NCBI GenBank assembly: GCA_029001845.1 | Contig: JAREWP010000033.1 | Coordinates: forward strand, 124,001-188,000 | DNA length: 64,000 nucleotides | Reading direction: 5' to 3' | Source: Candidatus Magnetocorallium paracelense | GTDB lineage: Bacteria > Nitrospirota > Thermodesulfovibrionia > Thermodesulfovibrionales > Magnetobacteriaceae | In this document: piece by piece, positions 51,299 to 63,166 of the stretch | Layout of the letters: each line of letters opens with the position of its first letter | Position numbering within the stretch: position 1 is the first letter of the stretch | Notes under the pieces: generated by a model | Seen by the model: only the letters and a program-made list of their open reading frames with translations | Told to the model about the DNA's origin: nothing | Databases searched by the model: none | Program-made: the position numbers and the translations under genes

Positions 51299-51674
51299 TA
51301 CGAACCGGCCTGGTAAGAGTACTTCTCTGATTTTAGCAAAAATGATCACGTCTATTACCAAGCTCTGGCAAATTAAATCTAATGGATATCTGCCCATTGT
51401 CGATATACATGATGTTGCTTTCTGGCTTTACGTCACCATCAGCCATCCCGCAAACCGTGTTAACGGGGCTCCATCACCTCAGCACAACGGCTTACGGCCT
51501 GCGATATCCCTGTCTGCGCTATCCTAGGGTGTTACTGACATAAGCCCAAGACTTGGTACAAGGTGTGTCGGGTCAACACTTCTCTGGTGGCTCTTGCAGC
51601 CACTGGCAGAATAGGCGCTTCGTGGCGCACCGTAGGTACACACCAACGTTTTTTTGCTGCTGAAACCTTGATGA
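51299..51674. other. Gene-free stretch between the SGNH gene and hisS; origin unclear
   Basis: No supported gene. Base composition is mixed and a few frames look decayed (for example reading ISHPANRVNGAPSPQHNGL). A candidate leader motif resembling a T-box was looked for and not found. It may be the remnant of an inserted element. Confidence 0.35.
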
Positions 51675-51728: not shown

Positions 51729-51778
51729 AGATCGCTCGTTTTTGGTTTAACGGGACATTGAGGAATAGTTATCGGACG

Positions 51779-53101
51779 ATGTTAAAAAAAGACGATATAA
51801 AACCTGCAAAAGGAGTAAGGGACTGGTACGGCAGAGAGGCTCTCCTGCGCAACAGAGTGCGTGACACACTGCAGGAGATATTTCAGAGGTACGGTTATGT
51901 TCCTTTGGAAACCCCTGTCATCGAGAGAGAAGACATCCTGAGTTTCAAGGGTGGAGGGGAAATACAGAAAGAGATTTTTAAATTGAGTGATCAGGGTAAA
52001 AGGAGTCTTGCCCTCCGTTTCGACCACACGCTCCCTCTTGCAAGATTTTTCACTACCCATAAAGAGCTGAAAAAACCCTTTAAACGATATGTCATGGGCG
52101 AAGTATTCAGAGACGGTCCCACTCAGCCGGATCAGGGACGATACAGAGTATTTTCTCAATGCGATGTCGATATAATCGGCGTAAAAGGCATGGCAGCCGA
52201 AGCGGAACTTCTTACTCTTGCTTCAGACGCCGTTACGGAACTCGGTCTCGGAAAAGTGACAATCCGGATTAACAACAGAAAGGTTTTGGACGGTATTATG
52301 GACAATGCCGATATCTCCGAAACCTCAAAGTTACAGGCAATTCTTGTTCTCGATAAACTGGACAAAATAGGGGTTGAGGGAGTAGAAAAGGAGTTTTCTG
52401 CTCTTGGCAGTACTGTTATCTCCGATTCCGCCATAAAAAAATTAATTGGTAACACCCTGATAGAGGGAGATAATAAAGAAAAAACCGATTTTCTCCACGG
52501 AATTATATCTTCAGAAAAGGGCAAGGAAGGATTGGAGGAAATCGGACATCTCCTCGATTATTGTAAGGAGATGAATTTCGATTTCGTGGAGTTCACTCCC
52601 TCCCTGGCAAGAGGTCTGGATTATTATACAGGAACGACTTTAGAGGTCTTTTTGGAGAATAAGGAGGTTATTGATTCCGCACTTCTGGCAGGAGGCCGTT
52701 TTGATAATCTGCTTGGAGATTTTTCCGGTTCCGACGAACCGATATATGCAATAGGCATATCTTTCGGACTGGAAAGGATATGTACGGCAATCGAGTCTTC
52801 CTCTTTGAATGGGAAGGAGACAACTACGGAGCTTTTTATCATTCCCATGAAAACAATGGCTCAAAGCCTGAAAAGGGCCCATATGTTAAGAAAGGAAAAG
52901 ATAAATACAGACGTCGAACTTAATGGAAGAAGCCTTAAAGCGGCAATGCGCTATGCCAATTCTTCCAACATTCCCTTTGTCGGGATTATCGGAGAAGATG
53001 AAATAAACAATGATGTTATTTCCATAAAAAGATTGAGCGACGGTATGCAAAATAAAGTCAAAATTAACGATGTCAAATCCTATTTAAAAGAAAACAGGTA
53101 A
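51779..53101 (+). CDS. hisS: Histidyl-tRNA synthetase
   Basis: Charges tRNA-His. The class II motif 2 (VFRDGPTQPDQGRYRVF) is about residues 109-125, and the HisRS-specific SLARGLDYYTGTTLEV lies near 275. A C-terminal anticodon-binding domain (AHMLRKEKINTDVELNGRSL) covers about 360-440. All HisRS-specific elements are present, so I call it the synthetase and not HisZ. I prefer ATG 51779; the TTG at 51758 adds seven residues. It opens the five-gene run to 56969, where each gene follows the last within 0-4 bases. Confidence 0.9.
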   Translation: MLKKDDIKPAKGVRDWYGREALLRNRVRDTLQEIFQRYGYVPLETPVIEREDILSFKGGGEIQKEIFKLSDQGKRSLALRFDHTLPLARFFTTHKELKKPFKRYVMGEVFRDGPTQPDQGRYRVFSQCDVDIIGVKGMAAEAELLTLASDAVTELGLGKVTIRINNRKVLDGIMDNADISETSKLQAILVLDKLDKIGVEGVEKEFSALGSTVISDSAIKKLIGNTLIEGDNKEKTDFLHGIISSEKGKEGLEEIGHLLDYCKEMNFDFVEFTPSLARGLDYYTGTTLEVFLENKEVIDSALLAGGRFDNLLGDFSGSDEPIYAIGISFGLERICTAIESSSLNGKETTTELFIIPMKTMAQSLKRAHMLRKEKINTDVELNGRSLKAAMRYANSSNIPFVGIIGEDEINNDVISIKRLSDGMQNKVKINDVKSYLKENR

Positions 53102-53104
53102 AAA

Positions 53105-54352
53105 ATGGATATGTATAAAAATAAGAACGATCTTCTTTCCGGCGATATCGTAAAGTTCAGAAAGCTGGAAAGAATATTCCTTGAGAGATGCAGACAGTTC
53201 GGGTATAGGGAAATAAAGACCTCGACGATAGAGCCTCTTCATATTTTCACAACGGCGGAAGCTCTTTCTCCTGAATCACTGAAGAGAATTTACTCTTTCA
53301 TCGATTGGGGAGGCTGGAGCGGTGAACGAGTAGTTCTGAGACCGGACTCTACCGTATCGACGGCAAGGTACTACCTCGGTCATCTGAACGATGAACCACT
53401 TGCAAAGGTTTGCTATGTGGAGAACCACTTTTTCCTGGATGATACGGGACAAGGCGTTTCCGAGAGATGGCAGTTCGGGCTTGAAACCATTGGAGACGAT
53501 TCGTCGCTGTCCGATGTGGAAACTGTTTTTATTGCTTTCGATACCCTACATGCTGCAAAATTGCCAAAAACCTTTATTCATCTTTCCTATCCGAGAATTG
53601 TTAAAGAATGCATAAAACATACATTCCCCGAAGAGTCGGACAAACAAAGAGCACTGGAACTAATCAAGACCAACCGGTATGAAGAGCTGCAATCGTTAAA
53701 GACCGGGGAAAACGGGCTTGATACCCTGCTTACGCTTCTCCATTTCAAAGGCAAGGGCGCTTCTTTTTTAAAAAATATCAAAAGCAGCTTCAGCGAATCG
53801 GATGGCATACAACAATACCTCAACAGATTTATCGAAGTTTGCCTGGTCCTGGATCGACTGAATTGCAGTTATGAAATAAACTTTTCTCTTTCAAAAAATT
53901 TCGATTACTATACAGGAATACAATTTGAAATTCTCTCACGTCCACAAAAAAGATACGCCAGAGATGTCTTATGCTCCGGCGGTCGCTACAATAACCTGAT
54001 CGGCTCTCTGGGAAAGGGAGACAAAGAGACGCCTTCCGTCGGATTCGCTTTCTATATTAAAAACATCGTTGCTCTATTGCATCTCTCCCATGACAGCCTC
54101 CGTCATATCGCCATTACAATGAGTAATATTACACATCAGAACATGAACGGCGCCAGGGGACTGTGCAATAAACTAAGCAACCTTGGTTTTGTGGCCTCCA
54201 TTACTTTGAACGAGATAAAAAGAGAATATCGTGAAAAATACGGTCTCATTATCGAAGTGGACTACGATAAATTCAGGGACGGATACGCTGTTATCTACAG
54301 TCAGGATATCGGCAAATCTCTTCTAAAACAAATCTTCGGAGAATCATTCTGA
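53105..54352 (+). CDS. HisZ-like ATP phosphoribosyltransferase regulatory subunit homologue
   Basis: A class II synthetase-like protein of the HisZ type. It has a class II core with LRPDSTVSTARYY (about 78-90), FDYYTGIQFEI (about 266-276) and GGRYNNLIG (about 292-300). At the position of the HisRS catalytic Arg-Gly (RGLDYYT) it has KNFDYYT, so tRNA charging is unlikely. The C-terminal ~80 residues (about 333-415) recall an anticodon-type domain, unusual for HisZ, which normally lacks it. HisZ forms the octameric ATP-phosphoribosyltransferase with short HisG. Here two HisG-like genes follow. Confidence 0.8.
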   Translation: MDMYKNKNDLLSGDIVKFRKLERIFLERCRQFGYREIKTSTIEPLHIFTTAEALSPESLKRIYSFIDWGGWSGERVVLRPDSTVSTARYYLGHLNDEPLAKVCYVENHFFLDDTGQGVSERWQFGLETIGDDSSLSDVETVFIAFDTLHAAKLPKTFIHLSYPRIVKECIKHTFPEESDKQRALELIKTNRYEELQSLKTGENGLDTLLTLLHFKGKGASFLKNIKSSFSESDGIQQYLNRFIEVCLVLDRLNCSYEINFSLSKNFDYYTGIQFEILSRPQKRYARDVLCSGGRYNNLIGSLGKGDKETPSVGFAFYIKNIVALLHLSHDSLRHIAITMSNITHQNMNGARGLCNKLSNLGFVASITLNEIKREYREKYGLIIEVDYDKFRDGYAVIYSQDIGKSLLKQIFGESF

Positions 54353-54354
54353 TT

Positions 54355-55023
54355 ATGAAAGAGACTTCTCTGTGTCTGCCAAAGGGAGATAACCTGAAAG
54401 CCGTTTCCGCGATCCTGGAGGAGATATCCTTTCCCATAGAAGGGTATACATCGGACAACCGGACCTATCGCCCTGTAATTGAAACACTGAAAAATACCAG
54501 GGCTAAGATATTCGCGGAAAAGGATGTGGCCATTCAGGTATCGGTAGGCAATTACGACATCGGTTTTTGCAGTCTCGACTGGATAGAGGAACAACTGGCG
54601 AAATCTCCGAAATCGGATCTCAAGATTTTGAAGAGAGTGGGAAGGAGTTATAAAAAAATATTCGCCTGCTGTCACAAAAGTTTTAAAGGGGAGAGCATCG
54701 AAGAGTTCTTGAAACTTCACGATGACTGCAGAATTATCAGCGAATACCCCGGTATTTCGGAACACTTCGCTATTGACAGGGGAATGAAGAAATACACAAT
54801 CTTTCCGGCATGGGGAAGCGTGGAAGTCTATCCTCCCGAACATGGGGAAATCGTTATCCTTGCCGCAGAGGACGATAAATCTCTTGAACCTCTGAATCTG
54901 AAACCATTGGATTTGATACTGGAATCGGAACTTTGTATTATTATTAACCAAAGGGCCTATGAAACAAGGGATATCTCTACGGTTCTGAACTTTTTCAGAA
55001 AAATCGAGGTAAAGGAAAAATGA
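54355..55023 (+). CDS. HisG-like protein A, ATP phosphoribosyltransferase fold with degenerate PRPP loop
   Basis: A 222-residue protein aligning to the short-form HisG. It has an LPKG motif (residues 8-11), YDIGFCSLDWIEEQ (about 67-80), IISEYPGISEHF (about 127-138) and GSVEV (about 154-158). The PRPP-binding loop, normally D-I-V-S-T-G-x-T-L, reads instead LAAEDDKSL (about 169-177), so the T-G pair is lost. It probably has no own transferase activity, or uses a different ligand. The family role is ATP plus PRPP to phosphoribosyl-ATP, the first step of histidine synthesis. It overlaps the next gene by four bases. Confidence 0.75.
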   Translation: MKETSLCLPKGDNLKAVSAILEEISFPIEGYTSDNRTYRPVIETLKNTRAKIFAEKDVAIQVSVGNYDIGFCSLDWIEEQLAKSPKSDLKILKRVGRSYKKIFACCHKSFKGESIEEFLKLHDDCRIISEYPGISEHFAIDRGMKKYTIFPAWGSVEVYPPEHGEIVILAAEDDKSLEPLNLKPLDLILESELCIIINQRAYETRDISTVLNFFRKIEVKEK

Positions 55024-55730
55024 TAAATCTGGCCATTCCCGACGGTCACCAAATGAAGCATGTCCTAAAGTTTTTCGATAACATAGGATTATGTCTGGAT
55101 GGTTATAACAACGGAACTCTGAATCGCAGACCTCTTCTGCCGCCGGATAGGGCGCCGAAAATGCTGAAGTCTCCTGAATCGATTTATACAAAGGTTATCA
55201 GACCTCAGGATATGCCCACCCATGTGGCCTCCAATGATTTCGATCTGGGCATAACAGGTACGGACTGGTTAAAGGAGCATACCATACGCTTTCCCTTAAG
55301 CCCGGTGGAAAAACTGCTTGGTCTTGGTTTCGGTAAAGTCAGAATCGTAGCGGCGCTTCATGAATCTCTGCCGGTATACTCCATAGAGGAACTGCGCAAT
55401 TTTCTTTCCTCCTTTACTCCCCTCGATTACTTCAGAATCGCCTCTGAATACACTTATATTGCCGACGATTACGCCAGGAGAAAAAAACTCCACAAGTACA
55501 GAGTGATCATGACCTACGGCGCGACCGAGTCACTCATACCGGAAGACGCTGAAATGATTTTGGAAAATACCGAAACAGGCAGTACTCTCCGTAAGAACCG
55601 CCTTAGGATTATCGACACTCTTTTCGAGTCCGAAGGGTGTCTGATTGTCAATAAAAACAGTCTTGACAACAAAGAAAAAAAAGGCGTTATAGAATCGCTT
55701 TGCGATCTGTTTCAAAGGGGCCTTACATAG
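55020..55730 (+). CDS. HisG-like protein B, ATP phosphoribosyltransferase fold with PRPP loop kept
   Basis: A 236-residue paralogue of the preceding gene. It has a LAIPDGH start (lysine of PKG replaced by Asp), FDLGITGTDWLKEH (about 74-87) and an IASEYTYIADDYA block (about 140-152). The PRPP loop ENTETGSTL (residues 182-190) is recognisable, with Asp to Glu at its first position. It starts in an ATGA overlap with the previous gene. With the HisZ-like protein it could form a heteromeric assembly; the true substrate may not be ATP. Confidence 0.75.
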   Translation: MINLAIPDGHQMKHVLKFFDNIGLCLDGYNNGTLNRRPLLPPDRAPKMLKSPESIYTKVIRPQDMPTHVASNDFDLGITGTDWLKEHTIRFPLSPVEKLLGLGFGKVRIVAALHESLPVYSIEELRNFLSSFTPLDYFRIASEYTYIADDYARRKKLHKYRVIMTYGATESLIPEDAEMILENTETGSTLRKNRLRIIDTLFESEGCLIVNKNSLDNKEKKGVIESLCDLFQRGLT

Positions 55731-55733
55731 AAC

Positions 55734-56969
55734 ATGAGATATCAGAACAATATAAAGCTTACTGAAGAGAATTATATTCAATATAAAAACCCCTTCATAA
55801 AACTTTATGTCGAAGCTTTTTCGGGAATTCTCGACAAAGAAGAACTGAATCCCGATGAGATAGAGAAGAAAATCAAGCGTTGGCTCTCCCATAAGGACAA
55901 CCTTATTCTCCTTAAGTTTGAAAACGATCATCTTGCAGCCTTCTGTGCAGGATACAACACCTGTTGCGCGGAAAGCCAAAAAAACAACACCGGGAAGACA
56001 AAAGATATCTGGGAGACATTTTGCGGACTTGGTCATTTTAGAGAGGAGCAGGAGACAAAGGAACTCTATTTTATAGACAGTCCTGTCGCATCGCAGCAAT
56101 ACAAAGACCGAGGCTATGTAGAAGAATTAATCGAACAGGTAATTTTTTCCAAGAGTGACGACTATTGTCGTTTTTTATTAATGACCCACAGACGGGAGAA
56201 AGAGCTGGAGATTTATAAAGAGAGGTTTCGTTTCATCCCTCTTGAGTATCCGGGCCCTGACAAAGGATTTACTTTTCTCGAGTTAAACAGAGCAGTTAAA
56301 AAGGTCACCTACATGATGCTCCTCGCAACCGTTGTAAAGGAGTGTGGAGAGGAGTTGACAGAGGCGAATTATTATGATAGTGATATTATCCTGAGACAAT
56401 CGGAAATCGGCCTGACCCCTTACAATGGGGATCGTGGATTTGGCAGGGTACGAAAAACCGTGGCCGAGAAACTGAGCATTGTTAATTCGAAGTTAAAGAC
56501 CTATAACAGGGATCAGGGGACAGATTACAGACTCCTCCTGTTACAAGGTTACAAGAGTTTGGAATCTCAGAATGAAGCATTTCATGCTTACAGGCAAAAG
56601 CTGGCTCAAAGGAGACTGCAATTCAATAACCTATATGATTTTATTGAAGAAATCCACAGACATGTCGCCGTTCCCACTGTGGCCGGCTATCCCACCGGAG
56701 GCGCAGTAAACGTCACGATCTTTGACAACCAAAACAGATCCTTCCCGGACATGGGTTCTCACCTTTACGAATATACATCGGATAAAACAACATGGGACGT
56801 AAAAGGTCTTACTCCGGAACAAAAGGCCAACAGGCAGTTACTATTTGACCTGATGACCGGCCAGGGATTCGCCCCGTTTCACGACGAGTGGTGGCGTTAC
56901 TCCTACGGAGACAGAGAGTGGGCCGTATATTACAACGAACCACACGCCATTTACGATCATCTGGTCTGA
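55734..56969 (+). CDS. GNAT domain fused to a D-Ala-D-Ala dipeptidase (VanX/DdpX)-like domain lacking the zinc ligands
   Basis: A 411-residue protein. Residues about 1-185 look like a GNAT acetyltransferase fold, with the CoA-loop-like block SQQYKDRGYVEELIE at 120-134. Residues about 205-411 resemble VanX/DdpX: LLLLQGYKSLESQNEAF (about 267-283), AGYPTGGAVN (317-326), PDMGSHLYEY (338-347) and DEWWRYSYG (384-392). In VanX the zinc ligands are His, Asp and His in SxHxxGxAxD and ExxH. Here they are Tyr319, Asn326 and Arg388, while Glu385 remains and the catalytic Arg is Lys274. So it is unlikely to be a zinc dipeptidase. It is the last gene of the hisS-HisZ-HisG-HisG run. Function unknown. Confidence 0.7.
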   Translation: MRYQNNIKLTEENYIQYKNPFIKLYVEAFSGILDKEELNPDEIEKKIKRWLSHKDNLILLKFENDHLAAFCAGYNTCCAESQKNNTGKTKDIWETFCGLGHFREEQETKELYFIDSPVASQQYKDRGYVEELIEQVIFSKSDDYCRFLLMTHRREKELEIYKERFRFIPLEYPGPDKGFTFLELNRAVKKVTYMMLLATVVKECGEELTEANYYDSDIILRQSEIGLTPYNGDRGFGRVRKTVAEKLSIVNSKLKTYNRDQGTDYRLLLLQGYKSLESQNEAFHAYRQKLAQRRLQFNNLYDFIEEIHRHVAVPTVAGYPTGGAVNVTIFDNQNRSFPDMGSHLYEYTSDKTTWDVKGLTPEQKANRQLLFDLMTGQGFAPFHDEWWRYSYGDREWAVYYNEPHAIYDHLV

Positions 56970-57051: not shown

Positions 57052-58707
57052 TTAACTGTATCGATTTTTTAAGTCCTTCAGTCTTTCCTTTGCCTTTTCC
57101 ACCCACTCTTGTTGAGAAGGCGAGTCCTGAGCCGCTTTTAAATATCTCTGCCATGACTTGATGGCCTTTTTCATATCTCCATAGTCTTCGAATGAGAGAG
57201 CAAGGTTATAATAGGCCTCTGCATATTTGGGATTAATTTTTATGGCGGCGATGTGATCTTTGATGGCCTGCTCCAGATTCCCCTGCTCGTAATAGATATT
57301 TCCTCTGTTATAGTATGCCTTTGCATACCCCTTTTTGTACTTAATAGCGTTATCATAATCGTTTATAGCCTTGTCCGACTCACCTACAGCTCTGTAAGCC
57401 AGCCCTCTGTTATAATATGCCTCGATATAGTTGGACTTCAATTTTATCGCCTCGTCGTAATCTTTTATTGCAGCTTCGAATTCCGACATTGTGTGGTATG
57501 TTATGCCGCGATTATAATATGCTTCCGCATAGGTAGGTTTAAGCCGAATCGCCTCATTGTAATCCTTTAGCGCGCTTTCCTGTTTCTTTAAAGCGCGATA
57601 GACGATGCCTCTGTTGTGATAGGCCTCTGCGTAATAAGGCTCCTTTGCAAGGGCTTCGTTATAACACTCCATGGCTTCATTGTGATGGCCCAGGTTATAG
57701 AGGGATATCCCTTTGTTTACAAGCTCCCAGACCTCCATATTTCCTTCCTCATCTTCCTCTTTAAGCTCCTCCCCGGTTAACTCACCGTAAATCCTGCCGA
57801 TATCCTGCCTGAGGGTCTTAAAATCCTTGTATCTCTCTTCCTTCTCTTTACTGAGACACTTTAAAATAATCTGATTGATGACTTTCGGTATATATGTTAC
57901 AGGAGCAGGCGCTTCTTTAAGGTGCCTTCCCATGAATTCCGCCAGATTGGAACAAACAAAGGGAGGTTTACCGGTGATCATTTCATAAAAAACGCAACCG
58001 AATGCATAGATGTCCGTTCTGATGTCAATATCCTTACCCAACCACTGCTCAGGAGACATATATGCCGGAGTCCCCATAATGGTGCCCGGCATTGTAAGCT
58101 CCATATTTTGTTGATTTATATCGATGCTTAGGGTCTTTGTCAGCTCCTCGCCTTCAATGTCGCGTAAAATTTTGACCAGTCCGAAATCGGTTATTTTTAC
58201 TTTCATATCCGCCGTGATCATTATATTGTCGGGTTTTATGTCCCTGTAAACAAAAGGTTTCTTCATCCTGGCGAACTTTTCCTGGGCATAGATCATACCT
58301 GCGCAGAACTGGGCGGCCACATTGAGGGCCATATTCATATCGAGCCCCATGCTTTTTATCCAGCCTTTCAGATCGGGACCGAATTTTTCATGACCGGTAA
58401 TATATTCAAGAAATATAAAAGGCCTGCCGTCGATCTTATAGACATAATAAGCCTTTACTATGTTTGTGTGCTTTTCGAGCCTCACCCATGTTTCCGCTTC
58501 CAGCATGAATCTGTTTACGAGCATTGGGGTGGAGAGATATTTGTCCTGGAGAGTTTTTAAGGCTACGGGAGTTTTGAATTCATGGTCATAGCAGAGGTAA
58601 ACAACACCCATTCCACCCGATTTAATGTCATGAATTTCATACCGGTCTTCAATCTTATAGCCGACACTCCATTTATCGGAGGGAGTATTGTTACGGTCTG
58701 TTGTCAT
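57052..58707 (-). CDS. Ser/Thr protein kinase with C-terminal TPR repeats
   Basis: A 551-residue protein. An N-terminal Hanks-type kinase (about residues 15-310) has VALKTL (Lys about 47), YRDIKPDNIMI (catalytic Asp about 151), DFGLVKI (about 173) and GTPAYMSPEQW (about 209). The HRD motif is YRD. Seven or so TPRs occupy about 325-540, with tell-tale YAEAYYNRG steps. It should be active. It follows an HDOD-GAF gene by 45 bases on the same strand and so probably shares a promoter. Target unknown. Convergent with the GNAT/VanX-like gene. Confidence 0.9.
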   Translation of the reverse strand: MTTDRNNTPSDKWSVGYKIEDRYEIHDIKSGGMGVVYLCYDHEFKTPVALKTLQDKYLSTPMLVNRFMLEAETWVRLEKHTNIVKAYYVYKIDGRPFIFLEYITGHEKFGPDLKGWIKSMGLDMNMALNVAAQFCAGMIYAQEKFARMKKPFVYRDIKPDNIMITADMKVKITDFGLVKILRDIEGEELTKTLSIDINQQNMELTMPGTIMGTPAYMSPEQWLGKDIDIRTDIYAFGCVFYEMITGKPPFVCSNLAEFMGRHLKEAPAPVTYIPKVINQIILKCLSKEKEERYKDFKTLRQDIGRIYGELTGEELKEEDEEGNMEVWELVNKGISLYNLGHHNEAMECYNEALAKEPYYAEAYHNRGIVYRALKKQESALKDYNEAIRLKPTYAEAYYNRGITYHTMSEFEAAIKDYDEAIKLKSNYIEAYYNRGLAYRAVGESDKAINDYDNAIKYKKGYAKAYYNRGNIYYEQGNLEQAIKDHIAAIKINPKYAEAYYNLALSFEDYGDMKKAIKSWQRYLKAAQDSPSQQEWVEKAKERLKDLKNRYS

Positions 58708-58752: not shown

Positions 58753-60357
58753 CTAGAGACTCTGTTTTATTGCCATAACCGCCTGATTTCTCAGAGTCTT
58801 TAAAAGAGTCAGTTGCTGAGGCGGAATGTTTATTTTTCCGGCATTGGTGTTATCAGCATAAATCATTCCAACAGGAACGTTGTTTATGATTAAAGGAAAT
58901 ACGATGAATGTCTCGGCGTCCAGAGCTTTTCTGTACCATTCGGGGATATAATTCCTTATTCTCGGTTCATTGATATCTTTCAGAAAAATATCCGATTCCT
59001 TGGAAAGAGCGACATTAAAGACATCTTGGGAATCTCCGATCTTAAATTGAAAGGATGAAACGACTTTGTCAATATCGGCGCCAAAGCCGAATCTGCCCAT
59101 CATCGTCGGCGTCCTGGTATCTTTTATGCAAATCAGGGCTCTTGTAGATTTCAGTCCCCTGTACATAATCTCCAGAATCATGCGAAGAATGTCGTTTATC
59201 GAGAAGTCAGCTCCCAACAAAGAGTTGGTTACATCCTGTATACCCCTTGTTAGGATGGCGTCCGGATCGTCGCTCAGCTCCGATTCACCGCTTGTAACGA
59301 TTATGTCCAGCGCCTGAGTGCTGGCAAGGTCGAGATCAGTATCGGAAGAAGGCATTATGGTCTCTCCTTCGGGCAGTTCGTCTATCTGTTCGCCCCTGGA
59401 GACCTTGGACATTTTATTAATAAAATTGCTCTGGCCCATATTGAAACTGTAAAGTTTAGAGTATTCGTCCATCTCTTGCAAAGAGGCGTCGATTAACCCC
59501 ATAATTTCGCTTTCGTCCATGGAAAAACACTTGTCGAATCTCTCTCTCAGCGTATTTAACGCCTTTCTCTGTCGCTCCGGATCTCCTTCAAGATTATTGA
59601 TTACAGTACTGAGTTCATTTGAGAAGGAGGTTACTACCTGATATTTTTGAGCGGCGCCGGCGGGTTTTTCCACCTTTGTTTTAGGTAATCTGTGCATGCT
59701 TGTCACAATCTGGTCAGGAAACTGCCATCCCTTTGCAATACTGGCCCCCAGTTTTTCATAAGAAAGCCCCAGAACGCCACGTGACGCCGTATCTTCGTCT
59801 ACGCCCTTTTGCCTGACAATGGTTTTAATCTTTTTCGCTTCTTCAGGCAGATAGAATGAGGCCAGTAGTTTGCCGAGATTGTAAAACATCGAGCATATGA
59901 AAACCTCTTCCTTATCCCTTATTTCGACTTTCCCGGCTATCTGTTTGGATATAATGCCGCTCATAAAGGCTATCAATATATTGTCTTTCACGTCTGCGGC
60001 GGCGTCCTTATTTTGGAGGTGATCAAAGAGCTTCATGGTGAGAGCTATATTTCGGACCTGCTCGAAACCCAGTATAAAAACGGCGCGTGAAATAGTGCTG
60101 ATTCTTTCTCCAAGTTGGTATTGGCTGTAATAAACGGAGTTTATGAGCTTTAAAAGTTTATTGGAAAGCGCGTAATCGTTAAGAATGGTATTGGTCAACT
60201 CGGTAACGGAAGCGTCACTGGCGTCGGAGGTTTGTTTGTTAATGATGTGCATCGTATGGGAAAGCGCAGGGAAATCACTGTTTTCCTTCATCCTCTGCTG
60301 AAGGAGCTTTACGGTTTTATGGATATGCTGTTCCGTACTTTTATTGCTTTGTGCCAT
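58753..60357 (-). CDS. HDOD domain protein with C-terminal GAF domain
   Basis: A 534-residue signalling protein. An HDOD domain spans about residues 20-215 (SNKLLKLINSVYYSQYQLGE, ISTISRAVFILG) and a GAF-type sensor about 385-530 (LLGADFSINDILRMILEIM at its start). A linker with acidic stretches joins them. It probably senses a ligand and signals by binding partners, since HDOD hydrolase activity is usually missing. It is co-oriented with the kinase gene downstream, so the pair may form one pathway. Confidence 0.88.
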   Translation of the reverse strand: MAQSNKSTEQHIHKTVKLLQQRMKENSDFPALSHTMHIINKQTSDASDASVTELTNTILNDYALSNKLLKLINSVYYSQYQLGERISTISRAVFILGFEQVRNIALTMKLFDHLQNKDAAADVKDNILIAFMSGIISKQIAGKVEIRDKEEVFICSMFYNLGKLLASFYLPEEAKKIKTIVRQKGVDEDTASRGVLGLSYEKLGASIAKGWQFPDQIVTSMHRLPKTKVEKPAGAAQKYQVVTSFSNELSTVINNLEGDPERQRKALNTLRERFDKCFSMDESEIMGLIDASLQEMDEYSKLYSFNMGQSNFINKMSKVSRGEQIDELPEGETIMPSSDTDLDLASTQALDIIVTSGESELSDDPDAILTRGIQDVTNSLLGADFSINDILRMILEIMYRGLKSTRALICIKDTRTPTMMGRFGFGADIDKVVSSFQFKIGDSQDVFNVALSKESDIFLKDINEPRIRNYIPEWYRKALDAETFIVFPLIINNVPVGMIYADNTNAGKINIPPQQLTLLKTLRNQAVMAIKQSL

Positions 60358-61977: not shown

Positions 61978-62514
61978 ATGTTTTTTCTGGAAAAGAGGAG
62001 ATGGTGGCCTGTATGGGCCGGTATTGCCTTTGCTTTGGTCGAGCTGCTCTCTTTTTATCTGTGCGAAAGACCTTTGGGAGCATCAAGAGGCTATGCCACC
62101 ATGGGATCTATACTTGAGTATGTCTTTTTCCCGGAACATGCGGAAACAGTCGCATATTGGACAATATACGAACCCTATGTGGAATGGACGATGGCTGTAT
62201 TGCTCGGCATTCTCTGCGGGAGTTTTTTCTCTTCCATTCTTTCCGGTGAATTTAAGATAAGAGCTATACCGAGATTATGGAGGGTATGCCAGGGGCCTTC
62301 GATCGTTTCGAGATGGTTTTGGGCGTTGATAGGCGGAGTTCTGATAGGTTTTGGCGCCAGACTCTCCCTTGGTTGCACTCTTGGAGCACTAATCGGAGGA
62401 GTGGTGCAACTGGCTCCGGGGGGATTCGTTTTTATGATGCTTCTGTGGATGGGAGCAGTTTCTACGACAATCCTTTTTTACAGGACCAAAACATTCATAC
62501 CTGGCAGGGAGTAA
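61978..62514 (+). CDS. YeeE/YedE family sulfur-transport protein, N-terminal half
   Basis: A 178-residue membrane protein of the YeeE/YedE (DUF395) family, which carries thiosulfate or other sulfur species in characterised cases. It has about four helices. A conserved cysteine lies in LSLGCTLGALIGG (about residues 128-140), the family's GxC region. Length is about half of the single-chain form, and the second half is the next gene five bases downstream. A strong AAGGAGG site precedes it. Confidence 0.8.
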   Translation: MFFLEKRRWWPVWAGIAFALVELLSFYLCERPLGASRGYATMGSILEYVFFPEHAETVAYWTIYEPYVEWTMAVLLGILCGSFFSSILSGEFKIRAIPRLWRVCQGPSIVSRWFWALIGGVLIGFGARLSLGCTLGALIGGVVQLAPGGFVFMMLLWMGAVSTTILFYRTKTFIPGRE

Positions 62515-62518
62515 GGAT

Positions 62519-63166
62519 ATGGAAGAGATATTTTTAAGAATACAGGAAACATTCGATCCCTATACGATCGAGACACTCACCGGCCCCTTTAGTCTGTACG
62601 GGGGATTTATCGTGGGCACACTGTTGGGCATCGTTCTTCAGAAAGGCAGATTGTGCAAATATGATGTGATATCCGGTCTTTTCAGGATGCAGGATTTTAC
62701 TTTTTTCCGTGTGGGCACTCCGTTGTTGATCACGGCTATGGTCTTAATCTACCTTTTCAGGGACTTCGGACTGGTCTCTCTTTATGTGCCGAAAACCGTT
62801 TTGCCTGCCCAGATTATAGGCGGTATAATGTTTGGCGCCGGTCTTGCCATAGCGGGCTATTGTCCGGCCATAGCAATGGGAGCTCTCGGAGAAGGGGCTC
62901 TTGACGCGATTCCTACCATCATCGGAATGATCGGCGGTTCGATTTTATATGCTGAATTTTTCCACGGCACATGGAAAGACGACATTATTCAATACATCGA
63001 TCTTGGAAGGGTAACTTTTCCCGACTTATTTCTTATTTTTAACCATTGGTTCTTCATCTTCGCCTTTGCCTTTATGTGCACAATGTTTCTGATAGGCATA
63101 TCAATGTATGATTCTTTTTTGAATTATTCTTTAAAGTTTCTGGGGGTTTTCAGGAAGAAAGATTAA
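62519..63166 (+). CDS. YeeE/YedE family sulfur-transport protein, second half
   Basis: A 215-residue membrane protein with about six helices. Conserved cysteine motifs KGRLCKYDV (about 41-49) and AGYCPAIAMGALGEGALDA (about 117-135) are typical of the family. Together with the preceding gene it forms the two-subunit type of transporter, and both probably work as one channel. The sulfur substrate is not predictable. A 122-bp palindromic element follows the stop. Confidence 0.8.
   Translation: MEEIFLRIQETFDPYTIETLTGPFSLYGGFIVGTLLGIVLQKGRLCKYDVISGLFRMQDFTFFRVGTPLLITAMVLIYLFRDFGLVSLYVPKTVLPAQIIGGIMFGAGLAIAGYCPAIAMGALGEGALDAIPTIIGMIGGSILYAEFFHGTWKDDIIQYIDLGRVTFPDLFLIFNHWFFIFAFAFMCTMFLIGISMYDSFLNYSLKFLGVFRKKD

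Follow-up and report, generated by a model that had tools for sequence, protein, structure and literature searches.

VanX-type enzymes cleave D,D-dipeptides; in VanX numbering the zinc ligands are His116, Asp123 and His184, the catalytic glutamate is Glu181 and the substrate arginine is Arg71. The D-Ala-D-Ala dipeptidases VanX and DdpX belong to subfamily D of the M15 peptidases, and VanX (1r44) is the closest solved structure to the protein described here. Inactive metallopeptidase homologues retained for protein interactions have also been documented, including the M15 protein Sonic hedgehog, whose inactivity is debated (PMC11266112).

The locus studied here encodes an M15 domain in which other residues occupy the three zinc-ligand sites, joined to a putative GNAT domain. 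It lies within the window, i.e. the whole stretch of 64,000 nucleotides that was analysed, and its features are listed in Table 1.

Table 1. Coordinates of the fusion gene, its active-site codons, the surrounding operon and the related genes of G442.
Feature	Position	Strand	Basis
hisS, histidyl-tRNA synthetase	51758..53101	+	TIGR00442 over cut-off
hisZ-like, HisRS paralogue of the ATP phosphoribosyltransferase regulatory type	53105..54352	+	TIGR00443 E=3e-50, under curated cut-off
hisG1, HisG paralogue without PRPP loop	54355..55023	+	PF01634 E=6e-18
hisG2, HisG with intact PRPP loop ETGSTL	55020..55730	+	PF01634 E=9.5e-37
Gene for the 411-aa GNAT + M15 (VanX-like) fusion	55734..56969	+	Pfam; 1r44 match; full-length orthologue in L078 (49% identity)
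N-terminal putative GNAT domain, aa 1-190	55734..56303	+	Orthologue PF00583 E=1.1e-6; alignment
C-terminal peptidase M15 / VanX-like domain, aa 191-411	56304..56966	+	PF01427 E=3.6e-11; 57% identity to G442 orthologue
Lys274, at VanX Arg71 (GYR motif)	56553..56555	+	Arg in 21/21 homologues
Tyr319, at first zinc ligand (VanX His116)	56688..56690	+	His in 21/21 homologues
Asn326, at second zinc ligand (VanX Asp123)	56709..56711	+	Asp in 21/21 homologues
Glu385, catalytic glutamate kept (VanX Glu181)	56886..56888	+	Glu in 21/21 homologues
Arg388, at third zinc ligand (VanX His184)	56895..56897	+	His in 19/21 homologues
G442 GNAT-M15 orthologue	L078:2610-3833	-	Same operon position and domain order as window fusion
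G442 histidine-racemase-like gene	L078:1792-2604	-	Directly after GNAT-M15 gene in G442

A GNAT-M15 fusion gene in a histidine operon

The open reading frame of the fusion gene runs from an ATG at 55734 to a stop codon at 56967-56969 and contains no internal stop. Amino acids 311-404 of its product matched Pfam Peptidase_M15 (PF01427) with 43.6 bits, over the gathering cut-off of 27, thereby confirming the M15 homology proposed in an earlier note made from the sequence. The NCBIfam VanX model (NF033115) was matched at E=6.7e-12 with 45.6 bits, far under its equivalog cut-off of 320. A phmmer search of solved structures returned VanX 1r44 (residues 249-397, E=1.8e-6) as the sole match at E<=10, and no better match to an unrelated family was found in Pfam, NCBIfam or the solved structures. 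A single-sequence AlphaFold2 model had a mean pLDDT of 32 and was not used.

The N-terminal part had no Pfam match even at E=10, and no GNAT was found for it among PDB sequences. The aligned part of its orthologue in G442, a draft genome of the same class (78% completeness, 3% contamination), matched PF00583 (Acetyltransf_1) with 29.3 bits against a cut-off of 20.7. The fusion to a GNAT-like domain, also proposed earlier, is thus borne out through this orthologue and not from the window sequence alone, and by orthology the N-terminal domain is a predicted GNAT. At the acetyl-CoA motif (R/Q)xxGx(G/A), the G442 protein reads QGQGYA; the window protein departs from the motif with KDRGYV, in which the Gly and the neighbouring Tyr are kept. 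The two proteins share 38% identity over the N-terminal part, lower than over the M15 part or the whole length.

The fusion gene is the fifth and last of a hisS-hisZ-hisG1-hisG2 operon, starting 3 bases past hisG2; the gaps between the five genes are, in order, 3, 2, -4 and 3 bases, and the genes downstream are convergent. Across the 6.0-Mb window genome (99.6% complete, 0.57% contamination), PF01634 matched HisG1 and HisG2 only, PF13393 matched the hisS and hisZ products only, and histidinol dehydrogenase is encoded elsewhere. Since no other HisG, HisS or HisZ was found in the genome, the operon most likely supplies both the ATP phosphoribosyltransferase and the histidyl-tRNA synthetase of the cell. 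A HisZ encoded beside a short HisG is the arrangement of short-form ATP phosphoribosyltransferases, the TIGR00443 match here being under its cut-off; relatives in the family and order have a long-form HisG of ~300 aa instead.

Elsewhere in the window, a match to group II intron D1-D4-6 (52.8 bits, 51361-51594, minus strand) lies just 5' of hisS. A gene for a Ser/Thr protein kinase with C-terminal TPR repeats (57052-58707, minus strand) adjoins one for an HDOD-GAF protein (58753-60357, minus strand). At 61978-63166, the upstream of two neighbouring open reading frames corresponds to the second half and the downstream one to the first half of Sulf_transp (PF04143), so that the pair is predicted to be a split, order-swapped transporter of this family.

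A phylum search with HisG2 recovered G202 (66% identity), and a class search with a HisG1 alignment recovered G202, G333, G449 and G442. All four genomes contain hisS-hisZ-hisG1-hisG2, with 55-71% identity to the window genes. Second short HisG genes in G023, G045, G054 and G028 were set aside, as they lie in another neighbourhood and not in the present operon. No fusion gene follows hisG2 in G202, G333 or G449, indicating that it is dispensable for the operon.

In G442, the gene directly after the orthologue resembles histidine racemase genes: its best NCBIfam match was the histidine racemase CntK (E=8e-17, under the equivalog cut-off) and its best solved structure the Fusobacterium histidine racemase 9cr1 (E=1.9e-6). 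Two cofactor-independent histidine racemases of such type have been characterised (PMC11602996). No homologue of this gene was found in the window genome, G202, G333 or G449.

The tandem HisG pair follows hisS-hisZ in the window (54355-55730) as well as on L067, L076, L077 and L078. None of the five HisG1 proteins retains the PRPP loop, the corresponding segment reading AAEDDKSL in the window and SVRDEESF, SVRDEETL, SVRDEESL and SVKNEMYL in the other four. HisG2 keeps ETGxTL in all five, with two extra residues before it in G449. HisG1 and HisG2 are the only HisG proteins of the window genome (G000), G202, G333 and G449, and G442 has a long-form HisG besides; judged from gene content, four of the five genomes thus use the pair where relatives have the long-form HisG. 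To our knowledge, a conserved dead HisG paralogue beside HisZ would be an undescribed form of ATP phosphoribosyltransferase, and the papers matched by title and abstract describe HisG plus HisZ forms only. Seen in five genomes, the conserved degenerate HisG1 may outrank the zinc-less fusion in interest.

Active-site residues of the M15 domain

The residue register between the window protein and VanX was set by the 1r44 alignment. With respect to the HxxxxxxD...ExxH pattern, His, Asp and His are absent and the Glu of ExxH is present; the codons at positions 274, 319, 326, 385 and 388 are AAG, TAT, AAC, GAG and CGT. The rarity of REPLACEMENTS in the window protein was judged against the column counts of 21 homologues drawn from plasmids, phylum members, viral contigs and genome contigs. 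Two homologues lack His at the third-ligand column, L047 having Ser and L048 Arg there; their first two ligands are intact, and both entered the set through a pattern scan aimed at exactly such exceptions. The VanX alignment and the homologue columns agree with the earlier note that the zinc sites are Tyr319, Asn326 and Arg388 and that the PDMGS and EWW blocks and Glu385 are kept; the replacement of Arg by Lys274 is a further change that it had not listed. With His, Asp and His lost, it follows from VanX chemistry that VanX-type zinc binding or peptide hydrolysis should no longer be possible. Because defining features of VanX/DdpX enzymes, the zinc ligands and the arginine, were looked for and not found, the protein is classed, on its predicted residues, as a homologous member of the M15 family and not as a VanX/DdpX enzyme.

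The G442 orthologue retains all of these residues: its motifs GHPTGGAVDL, EWWHYSYGD and GFR hold His, Asp, Glu, His and Arg. As the zinc ligands, the arginine and the GNAT motif are all present in it, the replacements are peculiar to the window copy. Ordinary HxxxxxxD...ExxH residues in a homologue from the same operon had been named in the earlier note as evidence against its reading, and the G442 protein is such a homologue.

Among 229 genomes of the class and 395 of the phylum, no other protein was seen to lack all the ligands. A scan of 11.3 million genome contigs of GTDB r220, which looked for EWW and then a codon with any middle base but A, revealed no further triple loss either, among the codons that it can see (it is blind to changes of His to Tyr, Asn, Gln, Lys, Asp or Glu). 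It gave two matches, one in Streptomyces phaeoluteigriseus, where the last His is Ser, and one in a Levyibacteriota MAG, where it is Arg. With the first His and the Asp kept in both, neither is a second triple loss. The match in the MAG, an M15 protein with EWWR for EWWH (L048:4184-4903, minus strand), is a single-ligand loss. Back-translated peptides detected no close homologue of the window protein in GTDB r220 genomes, and the window protein had no match in phages or in viral contigs; one ordinary M15 protein was found in the latter. The window protein is a singleton among the genomes searched. The replacement described earlier as consistent is so within this protein and not across the 21 homologues, where the substitutions are not fixed and the sole orthologue found has ordinary residues.

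Retention, decay and other explanations

With little more than even confidence, we lean towards the view that the window protein is a lineage-specific, young pseudoenzyme kept for a non-hydrolytic role, binding instead of cutting. Its ancestor would have combined a GNAT domain with an M15 domain that had a zinc peptidase site, and its gene would have been the last or penultimate one of a histidine operon. As far as two genomes and one neighbourhood suggest, this fusion is likely to have acted on a histidine-related D-amino-acid dipeptide or conjugate; a histidine-derived, possibly D-configured substrate is proposed because of the operon and the racemase-like neighbour on the one hand and the cleavage of D,D-dipeptides by VanX-type enzymes on the other. 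For the D-Ala-like or nucleotide ligand suggested earlier we found no specific support, as the operon and the racemase-like neighbour in G442 indicate histidine. In the window lineage, none of the three zinc ligands is left in the fusion; the substrate arginine is gone as well and the acetyl-CoA motif is no longer normal, with the fold-determining residues kept. The former pocket, which keeps Glu385 and gains the charged Arg388 and Lys274, might still bind a histidine-related ligand. Alternatively, the domain may use its surface to contact the co-translated complex of HisZ, HisG1 and HisG2, with a part in regulation or scaffolding.

Retention of such a pseudoenzyme has precedents in the metallopeptidase homologues kept for binding and is favoured by the intact frame of 411 codons within a tightly spaced operon, by the G442 orthologue with H/D/E/H and R at the same operon position, by the better conservation of the M15 part than of the GNAT part and by the absence of a racemase homologue from the window genome. 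Against it stand the dispensability of the fusion for the operon and the incomplete state of the G442 draft; moreover, loss of the GNAT motif and of the racemase would also suit a pathway being dismantled. One sequence alone carries the changes, and their selective fixation can therefore not be demonstrated.

Dismantling is the core of the strongest rival, in which this lineage gave up a histidine/D-amino-acid side branch and left the fusion gene as a recently inactivated remnant, drifting with its frame intact because the loss is recent. The catalytic residues would have gone first, perhaps since an orphan dipeptidase was harmful. We regard this as unlikely, yet deserving of real weight: besides the missing racemase, both active sites (M15 and GNAT) are affected, each of the four catalytic amino-acid changes requires no more than one transition, and the changes were found in no second genome. 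Uniform drift, however, predicts changes spread over conserved positions. We compared 26 columns whose conserved residue occurs in at least 17 of 20 outgroups as well as in the G442 orthologue, with the catalytic residues fixed beforehand from VanX: the window copy was changed at 4 of 5 catalytic columns compared to 1 of 21 others (P = 0.0016, one-sided Fisher's test). Its maximum-likelihood branch for the M15 domain (0.396) was hardly longer than that of the G442 orthologue with intact residues (0.352). Tajima-type counts with 20 outgroups gave no significant excess of changes for the window copy (all P > 0.16), whose count dropped further without the catalytic positions. Amino-acid-changing differences per site (pN) were 0.261 for the M15 part, lower than the 0.356 for the GNAT part and somewhat higher than the 0.19-0.23 for the his genes; no dN/dS is given because synonymous sites are saturated. 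The fusion gene also has no stop, frameshift or codon-position decay, and its GC3 resembles that of its operon neighbours.

The column, branch and Tajima tests on these sequences argue against a long or uniform decay. A recent loss is compatible with them, since each of them reflects the mean over the whole period after the divergence from G442. Selection for a non-hydrolytic role, as put forward in the earlier note, is thus in keeping with the catalytic bias of the changes, the intact frame and the lack of acceleration, but not with fixation in the family.

A pseudoenzyme kept for binding could also take a more specific form, which we consider improbable: the zinc-less GNAT-M15 protein would be a dedicated non-catalytic subunit, or a sensor of histidine or a histidine conjugate, of an undescribed ATP phosphoribosyltransferase whose other parts would be HisZ, a catalytic HisG2 and the conserved dead HisG1. 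Three of the five operon products would then be enzyme-derived and regulatory.

Even less probable, in our judgement, is that the protein is still an enzyme, in which the GNAT half would function despite its atypical acetyl-CoA motif, with the M15 half as its substrate-binding module. GNAT motifs are variable, the fusion has been kept, and the motif Gly and adjacent Tyr are retained; in addition, an unfused Streptomyces GNAT gene directly precedes an M15 gene, so the two activities can belong together. However, the motif has changed from Q to K and from A to V, no Pfam GNAT model matches the window domain whereas that of the G442 orthologue is matched, and the GNAT half is the less conserved one. 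An error of sequencing or assembly, or a chimaeric join of two genes, would fit a singleton but is very improbable given the full-length G442 orthologue with the same domain order, the completeness and contamination of the window genome, and several independent codons changed without frame errors.

Comparison with known systems

What is new here is a predicted M15 pseudopeptidase that a histidine operon encodes in fusion with a degenerate GNAT domain. Within the literature searched, no paper paired VanX or M15 with a pseudoenzyme, or histidine racemase with HisZ or VanX. The degenerate HisG paralogue and the histidine-racemase-like gene of a relative point to an unstudied branch of histidine metabolism.

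The window protein shares with VanX/DdpX the fold blocks G-Y-(R), G-x-x-x-G-x-A-V, D-M-G-S, N-R and E-W-W, and differs from them by the replaced zinc ligands and Arg71, the GNAT fusion, the his operon and its score under the VanX model. Outside the class, the closest relatives found (27-36% identity over ~200 aa) are M15 proteins with an EWWHxSxGDRxWA-type motif from Streptomyces (FxLD peptide clusters), Mesorhizobium (an ABC transporter operon) and Burkholderia; unlike the window protein, they keep the zinc ligands and are unfused. Two Streptomyces plasmid clusters (L013:4925-8962 and L014:4979-9079) encode a GNAT, an M15 protein with zinc ligands kept and an FxLD-type methyltransferase in a row. 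This GNAT was considered as kin of the window N-terminus, and homology was not detectable.

The GNAT-M15 protein of G442 is a true orthologue, with operon position and architecture common to both; it differs in having H/D/E/H, Arg, a proper GNAT motif and a histidine-racemase-like gene next to it. The M15 zinc site and the GNAT motif are thus complete in one member of this pair and missing in the other, which allows the direct question of what use an M15 domain has once it is unable to cut. The N-domain of Sonic hedgehog offers a likeness, as an M15-type fold described as serving binding and not hydrolysis (PMC11266112). There the zinc ligands are intact and the place of the catalytic acid is taken by Ala; in the window protein, conversely, the Glu is kept and the zinc ligands are lost.
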